Of a DNA stretch of 64,000 nucleotides, positions 36,141 to 41,012 are shown in pieces. How positions within the stretch are numbered: position 1 is the stretch's first letter; each line of letters opens with the position of its first letter. Both the position numbers and the translations under genes were made by a program. Below the pieces are notes generated by a model, which saw only the letters and a program-made list of their open reading frames with translations, did not search any database and was not told where the DNA came from. The DNA lies in assembly GCA_949285915.1 (NCBI GenBank), contig CASDZW010000005.1, forward strand, positions 1-64,000, in the 5' to 3' direction. Source of the DNA: an uncultured Collinsella sp. Lineage in GTDB: Bacteria > Actinomycetota > Coriobacteriia > Coriobacteriales > Coriobacteriaceae.

Positions 36141-36983
36141 CTATAATCGCCGTGCTTCGTTGCGACGGCGGTTGATGAGGTTCATGACCGCCGCCTCCAT
36201 ACCGAGCGGGACGTAGTCAAGCGACTCGAGGTCGTCGGGCAGGTAGGCGACGAGGCTCTGTTCGGTGTCGCGCCCGCGCTGGACCTGCTCGGGCGAGGGC
36301 GCGTCGGCGGGGACGGCGCAGACGCCCCAGACCGCGGCGCCCTGTGCGGCCAGTCTGGCCTCGTACTCGGTCTCGGGAAAGCCCGGGTGCTCGGCGCGCA
36401 CGTCGTCCGAGGTCCAGATGACGCGATATCCTGCCGCGGCGAGCTGCGTGAGCGTGTAGTCGCGCAGGGGCTGGCTGTCGGTGCGCAGCGTGAGCGTACC
36501 CCCGTGGACGAGAAGCCGGCGGTAGACGAGGAGATTATCGACCGTGGTGGTGCGGCGCCGTGCAAAGTGGCGCTTGGGGTAGGGCGTGGGGAAGTTCAAG
36601 GTGATGCCCGCAAGCTCGCCGGCGGCAAAGATGCGCTCGAGCGCGCCGGTCCCACGCGGGATGACAAGCGCGTTTAGCACCTGCTCCTCGCAGATGCGCT
36701 GGGCGGCGTAGGCGATGCAGATGGGCTCGATATCCACACCTATAAAGAGGCTTTGCGGCGAGCGGCGTGCGCTCTCAACAAGAAAGGAGCCCTTGCCGCA
36801 GCCGAGGTCGAGGTAGACGGCATCAAAGGAATCCGCACACGCCCCATCGGCGACGAGTGGAAAACATGCCTTGGCCCAGCGCCCGGCAAACGCCTCGGGC
36901 TTTGTCTCGATGGCGTCGCCGTAGCGCTCGAGGCGCTCCTCGAGCACGAAGTTCTTGGGCGTGCGGATGTGCGTGAGTCCCAT
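36141..36983 (-). CDS. trmB: tRNA (guanine-46-N7)-methyltransferase, divergent
   Basis: SAM-dependent enzyme making m7G46 in the tRNA variable loop. The 280-residue product has YLDLGCGKGSFLVESA (SAM motif I, near residue 58) and SLFIGVDIEP. The normally invariant FPDPWPKxRH motif reads FPTPYPKRHFARRR, so Asp and Trp are replaced; function may be retained, altered or lost. AAAGG lies before the ATG. It follows the Trm9-like methyltransferase gene by 61 bp on the same strand, next to Elp3: a small tRNA-modification cluster. Confidence 0.78.
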   Translation of the reverse strand: MGLTHIRTPKNFVLEERLERYGDAIETKPEAFAGRWAKACFPLVADGACADSFDAVYLDLGCGKGSFLVESARRSPQSLFIGVDIEPICIAYAAQRICEEQVLNALVIPRGTGALERIFAAGELAGITLNFPTPYPKRHFARRRTTTVDNLLVYRRLLVHGGTLTLRTDSQPLRDYTLTQLAAAGYRVIWTSDDVRAEHPGFPETEYEARLAAQGAAVWGVCAVPADAPSPEQVQRGRDTEQSLVAYLPDDLESLDYVPLGMEAAVMNLINRRRNEARRL

Positions 36984-37044
36984 GGGGGCCTTTCGGGCGG
37001 GTCGGTGTCGTTCGGCGATATTATGGGGAGCCCCGGGCGTCCGG

Positions 37045-37869
37045 TCAACCGCTGCGCGTAAGGACCAGATAGCGGTTGAGCGCGCCCGATTTGCCATCGG
37101 CAAAGAACCGCTCGATCTCTTGCGCGCAGTTCGCCACGTCGCGGGCGAGCGCGGAGATTTCGTCCTCGGTGAAGTGGTGGCAGTACCGCAGTGCCGAGGC
37201 ATCGTCCTGCCAGCCGAGGAGATAGTCGTTTCCGTCGAGCGCAGGCGCCGTCCCGGTTGCGCGGGCCCGTTCAGTGGCCGCGCGCGCCTTGGCAGCCAGG
37301 CGCTCGTCGTCCATGAAGCGCCAGAAGGAGAGAACGACGGTGCCGCCGGGCGCAGTCGATGCGATAAGCGCGCGAATAACGGCGAGGCGGAGGTCCCTGC
37401 TGGGGACGTGGTGCATAAAGCCAAAGCAGCACGAGAGGTCGCAGGCGGGGATGCCGCCGAGCGGCTCGAGGTTGTTGCCGGCCGCCGTGGGGGAGAGCAG
37501 CGCTTCCAGGATGTCGACTTCGCGGAAGTGCGCGCGCACATTCTCTGGTGCGCGCCCATCGCCGTCGCCCGGGCGGGCGGAGGGACAATCCGCGCTAGCC
37601 AGCTCAGCGCAGCGGTCGACCCCGTAGTAGTTGATACGGGTGCGCGGGAGGGTGCGGGCGAGGTGCCGAGCGAGCCGCATGTTGCCGCACGCAAGGTCGA
37701 GTACGCGCAGGGGCGCGTCCGCCTTGGTGTCAGACGCGCTTGCGGCAAGCTCGACTACGCGTGCCCAGCCCTGCCACGGCGCCGTGCGCGTGGCGGAGAA
37801 GGACGCGGCGTGGTCGCGGTAGAAGCGGTTGTTGAGCGCGATGAGGGCGCGGGCGTCATCGGTATCCAT
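37045..37869 (-). CDS. SAM-dependent methyltransferase resembling Trm9/ALKBH8
   Basis: 274 residues. The N-terminal segment NNRFYRDHAASFSATRTAPW corresponds to the FSQTRYKPWP signature of eukaryotic Trm9. Then come the SAM motif VLDLACGNMRLARHL, YYGVDRCAEL, and FMHHVPSRDLRLAVIRAL, which parallels the VHHW..R motif of Trm9, plus a C-terminal YCHHFTEDEISAL. Trm9 methylates cm5U34 to mcm5U34 in tRNA, the step after Elp3. Here the gene is divergent from elp3 with a 73-bp shared promoter region. GAGAGGACCCC supports the ATG. Assignment to Trm9 function is inference from motif and context. Confidence 0.7.
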   Translation of the reverse strand: MDTDDARALIALNNRFYRDHAASFSATRTAPWQGWARVVELAASASDTKADAPLRVLDLACGNMRLARHLARTLPRTRINYYGVDRCAELASADCPSARPGDGDGRAPENVRAHFREVDILEALLSPTAAGNNLEPLGGIPACDLSCCFGFMHHVPSRDLRLAVIRALIASTAPGGTVVLSFWRFMDDERLAAKARAATERARATGTAPALDGNDYLLGWQDDASALRYCHHFTEDEISALARDVANCAQEIERFFADGKSGALNRYLVLTRSG

Positions 37870-37926
37870 GGGGTCCTCTCGGCGCATGCGCGCATGCGCC
37901 CGGTCGCCGGGGAAAGCGGCTCTTAG

Positions 37927-37942
37927 TATAGAATCTCAGACT
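37927..37942 (+). promoter_or_regulatory. -10 element for a leaderless elp3 transcript
   Basis: TATAGAAT (37927-37934) lies only 8-16 bp before the elp3 ATG and there is no Shine-Dalgarno sequence, so transcription would begin at or next to the start codon. Confidence 0.5.
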
Positions 37943-40051
37943 ATGGAAGAGATTGTATTGCATATCGTCGAGCGCCTGCGCGCGGGCGAGCAGGTGGATG
38001 ACCGCGTGCTCGTGAAGCTCATCCATGCGGCGGCAAAGCACGCGGGCGGCGATAAGCGCGCCTTTGCCAAACGACGCCTTCTGCCCTTTTACCAGCGCAT
38101 CAAGACAGAAGAACCCGAGCGCTGGGCCGCGTGGGACATCACGCCCGATATCGAGCGCAAGCTCGTCCAGGTGCTTCGCATGAAACCGCGCCGTTCGGCC
38201 TCGGGGGTGGCAACCATCACCGTCATCACCAAGCCGTGGCCGTGCTCGGGATCGTGTCGGTTCTGCCCAAGCGACCTGCGCATGCCCAAGAGCTATCTGG
38301 CCGACGAGCCCGCTTGCGAGCGCGCCGCGCAGAACGCCTTCGACCCCTACCTGCAGGTGTCTGCCCGCCTTACGGCGCTCGTACAGATGGGGCACGCGAC
38401 CGACAAGATCGAGCTCATCGTACTCGGGGGCACGTGGAGCGACTATCCGGAGGGGTATCAGATCTGGTTCATCCGCGAGCTCTTCCGGGCGCTGAACGAC
38501 GGCGCCATCGCGGGCGTAGCGGAGAATCCGCTGCTGAGGGGTTTTGCCGACGAGGATGCCGCCGCCCCCGCAGAGAACGACCCCGTGCCGCCCGGCGTGC
38601 GCCGCCGCCGCGCGGAGCTCGCTACATGGGGCATCCTACCCGCCTCATCTGCCCCCGCTCCTGCTCGCGGCGATGCCGCCCGGGCATGCGGGAGGCAGCC
38701 CGCCGCCTCCACGTCCCCGACGTATCTGGGGGTCGACGCCGCCGAGCTCGCCCGCCTGCAGGCCGAGGTCAACGCCGGCACTACCACCTACAACGCCGCT
38801 ATCGCGCGTCTCTTTGGCGAGAGTCCCGCCTGGCGCTGCGCTTCTGCCGCGCAGACCGCGTCGATTGAGGAGCTCGAGGTCGAGCAGCGCCGCAACGAGG
38901 ATGCGCGCCACCGCGTTGTGGGCCTTGTCATAGAGACCCGGCCGGACGCCATCACGCCCGCGCGCCTCGCCCTCATCCGCCGTATGGGTGCAACTAAGAT
39001 CCAGATGGGCGTGCAGAGCACCTGCCAGCGTATCCTCGACATCAACGGTCGCAACACCGCGAACGACCGCATCGCCCGCTCCTTCTCGTACCTGCGTCTT
39101 TTTGGCTTTAAGATTCATGCACACGCCATGGTGAATCTGCTTGGGGCGGACCCGGCGGGCGATAGGGAGGATTACCGTCGCCTCGTTTCCGACCCCGCCT
39201 TTATGCCCGACGAGGTGAAGCTCTACCCCTGCGCCCTTATCGACGGCGCGGCACTCTGCCGCGATTGGGAGAGCGGTGCGTGGCGCCCCTATACAGAAGA
39301 CGAGCTTATCGATGTGCTCTGCGCCGACGTGCGCGCCACCCCCGCGTGGACGCGCGTGTCGCGCATGATCCGCGACTTCTCTTCGGGCGACATCAAGGCG
39401 GGCAACAAGAAGCCCAACCTGCGCCAGCTTGTGGAGGAGCGCCTGCGGGCACAGGAACGCGCGGGCGAGGGACCCGTGCGCGAGATTCGCTTCCGCGAGA
39501 TCGGTACCCACGAGGTCGATGTGGACGAGCTCGTCCTCGATGAGGTCTGCTATCAAACCCAGACGACCGACGAGCACTTTTTGCAGTGGGTGGACGGACA
39601 GGGGCGCATCGCGGGTTTTCTGCGCCTGTCGCTGCCGCACGCGGACGCGGTCCGCGCGCTTGCGGAGGAGATGGCCGCTGCGGGGCTTGCGGCCCCTGTC
39701 CAGCCGAACGAGGCCATGATCCGTGAGGTCCACGTGTACGGCATGGCGGAGCGTGTGGGCGAGGCGGGCGCGGCAGCGCAGCACCGCGGACTCGGCCGCG
39801 ATCTGGTGGAGCGCGCCTGTGCTATTGCCCACGACGCGGGTTTCATGCACATAAACGTCATCAGCTCGGTGGGCACGCGCGCCTACTATCGACGGCTTGG
39901 CTTTGTCGATTGTGGCCTCTACCAGCGGCGCGATCTCACCAAGACGTCAAATGGCGCACATTTGGGCAAAAATGCTCAAGTCGGTTATGGGCATGAAATT
40001 CCGCAACACGGGCGGAAAGGTCAAAACGGAGGCTCTCATGAACATGCGTGA
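37943..40051 (+). CDS. Elp3-family tRNA uridine-34 carboxymethyl synthase (radical SAM/GNAT)
   Basis: Bacterial Elp3: uses SAM and acetyl-CoA to build cm5U at tRNA position 34. The radical SAM domain has PWPCSGSCRFCPSDL (Cys spacing 3 and 2, near residue 96), then EPACERAAQNAFDPYLQ and IVLGGTWSDYP. RRNEDARHRVVGLVIETRPD continues the barrel, and the C-terminal GNAT domain has HRGLGRDLVERA and YYRRLGF. At 702 residues it is about 150 longer than usual; an Ala/Pro-rich insertion of roughly 100 residues lies near 195-310. Start chosen at the ATG just after a -10 box. Its end overlaps the next gene by 14 bp. Confidence 0.9.
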   Translation: MEEIVLHIVERLRAGEQVDDRVLVKLIHAAAKHAGGDKRAFAKRRLLPFYQRIKTEEPERWAAWDITPDIERKLVQVLRMKPRRSASGVATITVITKPWPCSGSCRFCPSDLRMPKSYLADEPACERAAQNAFDPYLQVSARLTALVQMGHATDKIELIVLGGTWSDYPEGYQIWFIRELFRALNDGAIAGVAENPLLRGFADEDAAAPAENDPVPPGVRRRRAELATWGILPASSAPAPARGDAARACGRQPAASTSPTYLGVDAAELARLQAEVNAGTTTYNAAIARLFGESPAWRCASAAQTASIEELEVEQRRNEDARHRVVGLVIETRPDAITPARLALIRRMGATKIQMGVQSTCQRILDINGRNTANDRIARSFSYLRLFGFKIHAHAMVNLLGADPAGDREDYRRLVSDPAFMPDEVKLYPCALIDGAALCRDWESGAWRPYTEDELIDVLCADVRATPAWTRVSRMIRDFSSGDIKAGNKKPNLRQLVEERLRAQERAGEGPVREIRFREIGTHEVDVDELVLDEVCYQTQTTDEHFLQWVDGQGRIAGFLRLSLPHADAVRALAEEMAAAGLAAPVQPNEAMIREVHVYGMAERVGEAGAAAQHRGLGRDLVERACAIAHDAGFMHINVISSVGTRAYYRRLGFVDCGLYQRRDLTKTSNGAHLGKNAQVGYGHEIPQHGRKGQNGGSHEHA

Positions 40052-41012
40052 CGCGCACCAGATGCTCGCGACGGTCGGCCTCATCTTGGTGATCGCCTTC
40101 GCCCTGCAGCTTGCGACCCTGCCGCCTGCGGGCATCGTCATCGTCTTGGTGGTGCTGGCGGTGGTCCTAATTGGGCTCTACCTGCACGTTCGCGCGCAGG
40201 CAAAAGCGGGCGCCGCGTCTCCTGCGCCTCAGGTGCGCGAGATCGCCTCTCCCGACGGCGAGCCGGTGCGCGTGCTCGAGAGCGGTGGTGTCTACCAGTC
40301 GGCTACGTATCTGGACGAGCGGCGCTTTGAGCCGGTATTTGCCTACCAGCGCGCCTTTGAGGTGATGTTTGAGGTAGAGGATGAGATGCGCGCCGCGCAT
40401 GGGCACGGTATCGAGCGCGCGCTCGCGATCGGCGGTGGCGGCTTTGCCTGGCCCAAGTACACCCTCACCCGCCATCCGGAGCTCATGCTCGATGTGGTGG
40501 AGTCCGACCCTTCGGTCATCGAGCTTGCACAGCGCTGGTTTTTTGTTGACGAGCTTAAGCGTCAGGTAGGCGGCAGGCTGTACATCATGGAGGCGGACGG
40601 CCGCGAGCTCATCGACGAGCTTGCGCCCGGCATGGAGTTTGCGGCAACGTCCACGGCCGTGCACTGCCGCGCGCCCTATGACGCCGTGGTGAACGATACA
40701 TTCTCCGGCGCCGAGCCCGTGCATGCGCTTGCCACCGTGGAGGCCGTGCGTTCCGTACACGCGGTGCTCCGCTCGGGTGGCCTCTACCTCACCAACGTGG
40801 TCTCGCGCGAGGAGGGGCGCGACCTCACGTTTCTGCGCGACGAGGCGGCGACGCTCGCCGAGGTGTTCGCCCACGTGCACATCATCCCTGCGACCGACGA
40901 GCTCTGGGGCGGGGAGGACAACTACCTCATCATCGCAACCGACGGGGCGTATGCGTTCACCGATGCCATTCCCTTTGACGAGGACTTTCTGGGCACGCCC
41001 CTTCGGGACTAA
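40038..41012 (+). CDS. Spermidine synthase-like protein with two N-terminal membrane helices
   Basis: 324 residues. Two hydrophobic helices (about 10-50: LATVGLILVIAFALQ, IVIVLVVLAVVLIGLYLHV) anchor a cytoplasmic domain of the SpeE/methyltransferase fold: ALAIGGGGFAWPKYTL, LMLDVVESDPSVIELA, and DAVVNDTFSGAEPVHALAT. Polyamine synthases have Asp residues here, but the membrane anchor and the AFPxK-free substrate loop leave the reaction open. CGGAGG precedes the ATG; the start lies inside the 3' end of elp3, implying co-expression. Confidence 0.75.
   Translation: MNMRDAHQMLATVGLILVIAFALQLATLPPAGIVIVLVVLAVVLIGLYLHVRAQAKAGAASPAPQVREIASPDGEPVRVLESGGVYQSATYLDERRFEPVFAYQRAFEVMFEVEDEMRAAHGHGIERALAIGGGGFAWPKYTLTRHPELMLDVVESDPSVIELAQRWFFVDELKRQVGGRLYIMEADGRELIDELAPGMEFAATSTAVHCRAPYDAVVNDTFSGAEPVHALATVEAVRSVHAVLRSGGLYLTNVVSREEGRDLTFLRDEAATLAEVFAHVHIIPATDELWGGEDNYLIIATDGAYAFTDAIPFDEDFLGTPLRD

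Follow-up and report, generated by a model that had tools for sequence, protein, structure and literature searches.

Does an actinobacterium modify its wobble uridines with a pair of enzymes best known from eukaryotes? This question is raised by a 64,000-nucleotide stretch of DNA (the window; contig CASDZW010000005.1, positions 1 to 64,000) from an uncultured Collinsella sp. of the class Coriobacteriia. Here elp3, encoding a radical S-adenosylmethionine (SAM) enzyme with an acetyltransferase domain, and a gene for a Trm9-like methyltransferase are divergently transcribed with exactly 73 bp between them, and therefore form no operon in the window (Table 1). A sequence-only reading of the locus had proposed a reduced, two-enzyme pathway from 5-carboxymethyluridine (cm5U) to 5-methoxycarbonylmethyluridine (mcm5U) at tRNA position 34. 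The analysis bore this out as far as comparison of sequences reaches: co-occurrence across genomes, synteny in two lineages, profile links to Trm9, and the conservation of residues implicated in tRNA binding favor a pair made up of Elp3 and a Trm9-type enzyme with wobble uridine as its target, and we consider it quite probable that Elp3 and the stand-alone methyltransferase constitute a cm5U34 to mcm5U34 pathway. The 73-bp spacing, the 36141-40051 envelope, and the methyltransferase motifs FSATRTAPW and MHHVPSRDLRLAVIRAL were all confirmed from the sequence.

The distribution of the two genes was examined in 119 Coriobacteriia genomes, all at least 90% complete apart from the window's own (1.88 Mb, 82% complete), counting as true Elp3 a best TIGR01211 stretch of at least 230 bits. 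Elp3 was present in 49 of the 119 genomes, and the methyltransferase in 48 of these 49 and in none of the 70 genomes without Elp3 (Fisher p about 1e-32 with kinship ignored, which inflates the figure). The distribution was patchy but concordant: within genus g14, G035, G059, and G073 had both genes and G047 neither; within genus g24, G117 had both and G103 neither; and presence and absence also agreed inside families f2, f3, f4, and f10. The pairing is not a matter of chance. A synteny survey, suggested by the sequence-only reading as a check, found the genes divergent in 44 of the 48 genomes with both (38 within 1 kb, 6 at 1–5 kb), codirectional and less than 1 kb apart in two, and far apart or on separate contigs in two. 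Since the separated pairs (240 kb apart in G118, on separate contigs in G017) still comprise both genes, the genes are co-retained even when not adjacent. The same-strand pairs (G029:C1:2840995-2843792 and G043:C28:29329-31895) belong to one genus and have the methyltransferase directly downstream of elp3; in G029 the gene ends overlap, an operon-like arrangement. In G031 both genes look truncated, but a run of masked bases lies there, so this was not called a deletion.

The pair was also found in a second actinobacterial lineage. Among 296 Actinomycetota, the 28 Elp3-positive genomes were the same 28 that gave methyltransferase matches at E <= 2.1e-8. Six of these (G150, G172, G183, G305, G319, and G326) lie outside Coriobacteriia and encode an Elp3 scoring about 600 bits together with a shorter methyltransferase of 234–242 aa. 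The genes were divergent neighbors in four of the six, namely in all genomes where one contig holds both; in the other two, separate contigs carried them, and the methyltransferase lay near the end of its contig. No MnmG match over the cut-off was seen in any of the six.

The window Elp3 passed the curated family threshold (TIGR01211, 376.3 bits; cut-off 350), and its PDB matches were DmcElp3, MinElp3, and Elongator Elp3, with E values down to 1.9e-73. The radical-SAM cysteines (Cys101/105/108) and the lysine acetyltransferase (KAT) residues K155, K390, E595, H597, and Y648 are conserved, so that the radical SAM and GNAT motifs reported earlier were substantiated. The reference catalytic residues of MinElp3, K150, K266, Q461 (E in DmcElp3), and Y517, are required for acetyl-CoA hydrolysis (PMC6367351); E595 occupies the Q461 position and is of the same residue type as in DmcElp3 (MinElp3 and DmcElp3 residues were taken from aligned segments of HMMER matches, not from full records). 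The CxCxxC zinc linker has been lost, C384/C386/C389 of MinElp3 being V/E/F in the window protein; because eukaryotic Elp3 likewise has no zinc cysteines (PMC6367351), this loss does not exclude Elp3 identity. The protein further contains a lineage-specific insert of ~120 aa in the radical-SAM half (window 38500-38875; P0002 residues ~188-310), which is conserved in its C-terminal part and absent from MinElp3 and DmcElp3, and an N-terminal extension of ~80 aa. In MinElp3, the N-terminal region matters for tRNA binding (PMC6367351). TIGR01211 scores ranged from 230 to 427 bits in Coriobacteriia, compared with about 600 in other actinobacterial lineages.

The window methyltransferase (METHYLTRANSFERASE), whose closest match is from Collinsella sp. 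An307 (83% identical), matched generic Pfam methyltransferase domains only and none of the NCBIfam models. Its AlphaFold model showed a good class I fold (predicted local distance difference test score, pLDDT, 86). The link to Trm9 runs through the short Elp3-linked family of the second lineage. The top match of that family among 177,635 PDB sequences was Yarrowia Trm9 (5cm2, E 1.9e-20; residues taken from aligned segments of HMMER matches, not the full record), with an alignment spanning nearly the entire chain; the next PDB match covered the SAM-binding core only. The short family in turn aligned with the window family over about 205 columns (hhalign E 6.4e-24). When sequences were ranked directly against the window family, the haloarchaeal L082 (WP_006068033.1) and yeast Trm9 stood above the generic methyltransferases tried, which came from plasmids and viral contigs, with a small margin over the latter. 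The viral-contig matches to the short family are generic methyltransferases and served as outgroups. The yeast Trm9 sequence used matches 5cm2 at 2.3e-70 and agrees with all five published residue numbers.

Binding of tRNA and kcat are both impaired in yeast Trm9 by the substitutions R29A, H115A, R241A, Y243A, and N271A (PMC5372719). The equivalents of R29, H115, R241, and N271 (R28, H153, R228, and N265 in the window protein) were invariant in all 43 aligned members of the two actinobacterial families. Among 29 other aligned methyltransferases, all four were present only in L082, the remaining 28 having at most two. When the four longest outgroups were left out of the tree, both actinobacterial families, Trm9, and L082 joined at 96/93. 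L082 itself (L082:2456-3166, on a Natronorubrum bangense plasmid) is annotated merely as a 'class I SAM-dependent methyltransferase', and grouped with Trm9 at 96/91.

We then considered the tRNA-modification context. The usual enzymes for C5 of U34 are essentially missing from Coriobacteriia: MnmE exceeded its cut-off in 0 of 119 genomes and MnmG in 1 of 119, and weaker MnmE and MnmG matches are probably Der and TrmFO relatives. The single MnmG (G062:C8:4785-6713) could represent contamination or a recent transfer. MnmA was present in 117 of 119 genomes; no match was found in the window's own genome, for which its 82% completeness may account. Genes for U34 tRNAs for Lys, Glu, Gln, Arg, Gly, and Leu are present in the relative G073. 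An Elp3-positive species and an Elp3-negative congener had identical sets of 45 tRNAs, so the tRNA gene set was ruled out as the cause of Elp3 presence or absence. In both congeners, Lys, Glu, Gln, and Arg (AGR codons) are each served by U34 as well as C34 isoacceptors; this would fit a role in tuning that a lineage can lose.

On these grounds, the following pathway can be proposed. Elp3 would bind a U34-containing tRNA and use acetyl-CoA and a 5'-deoxyadenosyl radical to form cm5U34; the methyltransferase would then bind the same anticodon loop and methylate the carboxylate with SAM, yielding mcm5U34. The tRNAs for Lys, Glu, and Gln could optionally be thiolated by MnmA as well, which would give the 2-thio derivative mcm5s2U34. 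The methyltransferase is predicted to work without Trm112, and the pair would fill the MnmE/MnmG niche in Coriobacteriia, which are without those enzymes. We also regard as fairly likely the broader proposal that a bacterial, Trm112-independent mcm5(s2)U34 pathway, consisting of Elp3 and a diverged Trm9 alone, takes the place of MnmEG in a major group of bacteria of the human gut, and that its genes have been lost or moved together, as one unit, on many occasions.

Several observations weigh against the cm5U34 to mcm5U34 pathway. G087 is the lone Elp3-positive genome without the methyltransferase, having an unrelated reading frame upstream of elp3, and G049 has an extra stand-alone methyltransferase (L023 / L010, G049:C4:255276-256094) with no elp3 nearby; G049 also keeps the usual adjacent pair. 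Trm9 and ALKBH8 require Trm112. No Trm112 match (PF03966) was found in the window's genome, which is 82% complete, and scattered weak PF03966 matches in other genomes do not track Elp3. Unlike the four invariant tRNA-binding residues, Y243, which is important in yeast (PMC5372719), is not kept: it is Cys in 37 of 37 coriobacterial sequences (C230 in the window) and variable in the short family. Direct profile similarity is modest, the window family reaching Trm9 at E 0.06 by HMMER against PDB, with no decisive match, and at 7e-9 by hhalign. Grouping with unrelated small-molecule enzymes had been named as a result that would speak against the proposal; the Trm9 grouping given above appears without the longest outgroups, and with them kept the tree leaves the placement of the family open. 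Neither the Trm9 grouping nor the joining of the family with generic methyltransferases (p 0.30 for the latter) is rejected by the approximately unbiased (AU) test. In Foldseek searches, generic methyltransferases matched the model and Trm9 did not stand out, 5cm2 being at rank 40. Because of the Y243C replacement, the missing Trm112, and the weak direct tree support, we withhold formal membership of Trm9.

The substrate of the methyltransferase could also be a derivative other than cm5U. The enzyme might modify the Elp3 product at U34 without making mcm5U, giving instead a methylated 5-carbamoylmethyluridine (ncm5U), a hydroxylated derivative, or a 2'-O-methyl group. Co-inheritance demands only a common pathway, Y243 is replaced by Cys, and archaeal organisms with Elp3 show varied xm5U34 nucleosides including ncm5U (PMC5372719; PMC6313347). 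Nevertheless, the residues that are thought to orient cm5U34 in Trm9 are retained, and the carboxylate made by Elp3 is the simplest substrate for a methyltransferase paired with it, so we consider such an alternative product unlikely.

Two further explanations depart from the proposed pathway in other ways. If Elp3 worked as usual and the methyltransferase were a small-molecule or protein enzyme merely sharing its regulatory region, the match to generic Pfam domains only and the natural-product methyltransferases among the best Foldseek matches would be accounted for. Shared regulation fits poorly with pairs that co-occur at 240 kb or on separate contigs, with the joint presence or absence of both genes in several lineages, and with invariant Trm9 residues outside the SAM-binding core, which together make this explanation very improbable. 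It is just as hard to credit that Elp3 of Coriobacteriia does something other than form cm5U34 and that the pair acts on another RNA or at another position. The ~120-aa insert, the lost zinc linker, and the low TIGR01211 scores would agree with a new target; against it, Elp3 retains every catalytic residue tested and the three radical-SAM cysteines, the zinc cysteines are missing from eukaryotic Elp3 too, and in organisms without MnmEG, U34 would be left with no usual C5 pathway. The best reading of the sequences is that the pair would work like Elongator/Trm9.

Compared with Elongator-Trm9/Trm112 and ALKBH8/TRMT112, the coriobacterial system shares the radical SAM and KAT active sites of Elp3, and with Trm9/ALKBH8 the equivalents of R29/H115/R241/N271 and full-length similarity through intermediates. 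Unlike Elongator-Trm9/Trm112, it has no recognized Trm112, has Cys in place of Y243, carries a unique insert in Elp3, and has its genes adjacent and divergent. Known archaeal and bacterial precedents lack the other Elongator subunits. A stand-alone prokaryotic Elp3 with a Trm9 homolog was proposed in 2008 for Haloferax (H. volcanii) and Sulfolobus (S. solfataricus), the genes being clustered in S. solfataricus (PMC2584109, PMC5372719). The sequence-only reading had called the pathway usually regarded as eukaryotic. mcm5U does appear among the signature nucleosides of eukaryotes (PMC2584109); because the archaeal pairs had already been proposed, that wording needs softening. The archaea differ in having Trm112 and NcsA/Tuc1-type thiolation, where bacterial MnmA would serve here, and the coriobacterial sequences are strongly diverged from the archaeal pair. 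DmcElp3 of Dehalococcoides mccartyi (5l7j) is likewise a bacterial stand-alone Elp3 with identical catalytic residues; it has no N-terminal extension and no insert, and keeps the zinc linker. The MnmE/MnmG(/MnmC) pathway has the same tRNAs and the same site, C5 of U34, as its target, with methyl transfer last in some bacteria, and differs in using unrelated enzymes and chemistry.

According to a 2017 review, no genes resembling the Trm112-dependent methyltransferases of the Trm9 type could be detected in bacteria (PMC5372719), and our literature search, which covered few subscription papers, found no published description of a bacterial Elp3–Trm9 pair. If the proposal is correct, wobble chemistry by Elp3 and Trm9 extends to all three domains of life, and the coriobacterial version would be a minimal two-protein system, free of Elongator's other subunits and of Trm112. 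Culturable gut Coriobacteriia without MnmEG would then offer natural Elp3-positive and Elp3-negative sister species for probing the role of the modification.

Table 1. Features at the elp3 locus, in window coordinates.
Feature	Coordinates	Strand	Length and start	Domain or remark
elp3	37943..40051	+	702 aa, start ATG 37943	Radical SAM + GNAT (KAT) tRNA U34 enzyme
Trm9-like class I SAM methyltransferase	37045..37869	-	274 aa, start ATG 37869	Pfam Methyltransf_23
Intergenic region between elp3 and methyltransferase	37870..37942	.	73 bp	Read from sequence
trmB-like tRNA m7G46 methyltransferase	36141..36983	-	280 aa	PF02390 97 bits

As the sequence-only reading had noted, trmB is the next gene after the methyltransferase, on the same strand. 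Its product matches Pfam Methyltransf_4 at the score in Table 1, and TIGR00091 at 98 bits, under the cut-off of 112.65. Only loci from the family of the window had a TrmB gene beside the pair, and the conserved-neighborhood comparison found none near the pair at loci from other families; trmB therefore does not belong to the conserved unit and probably lies outside the pathway. A TrmB operon as the functional unit was dropped because the adjacency is confined to that family. On the other side of the locus, the likely start of a spermidine-synthase-like open reading frame (window 40039-41012, + strand) overlaps the end of elp3, and the two may be cotranscribed.

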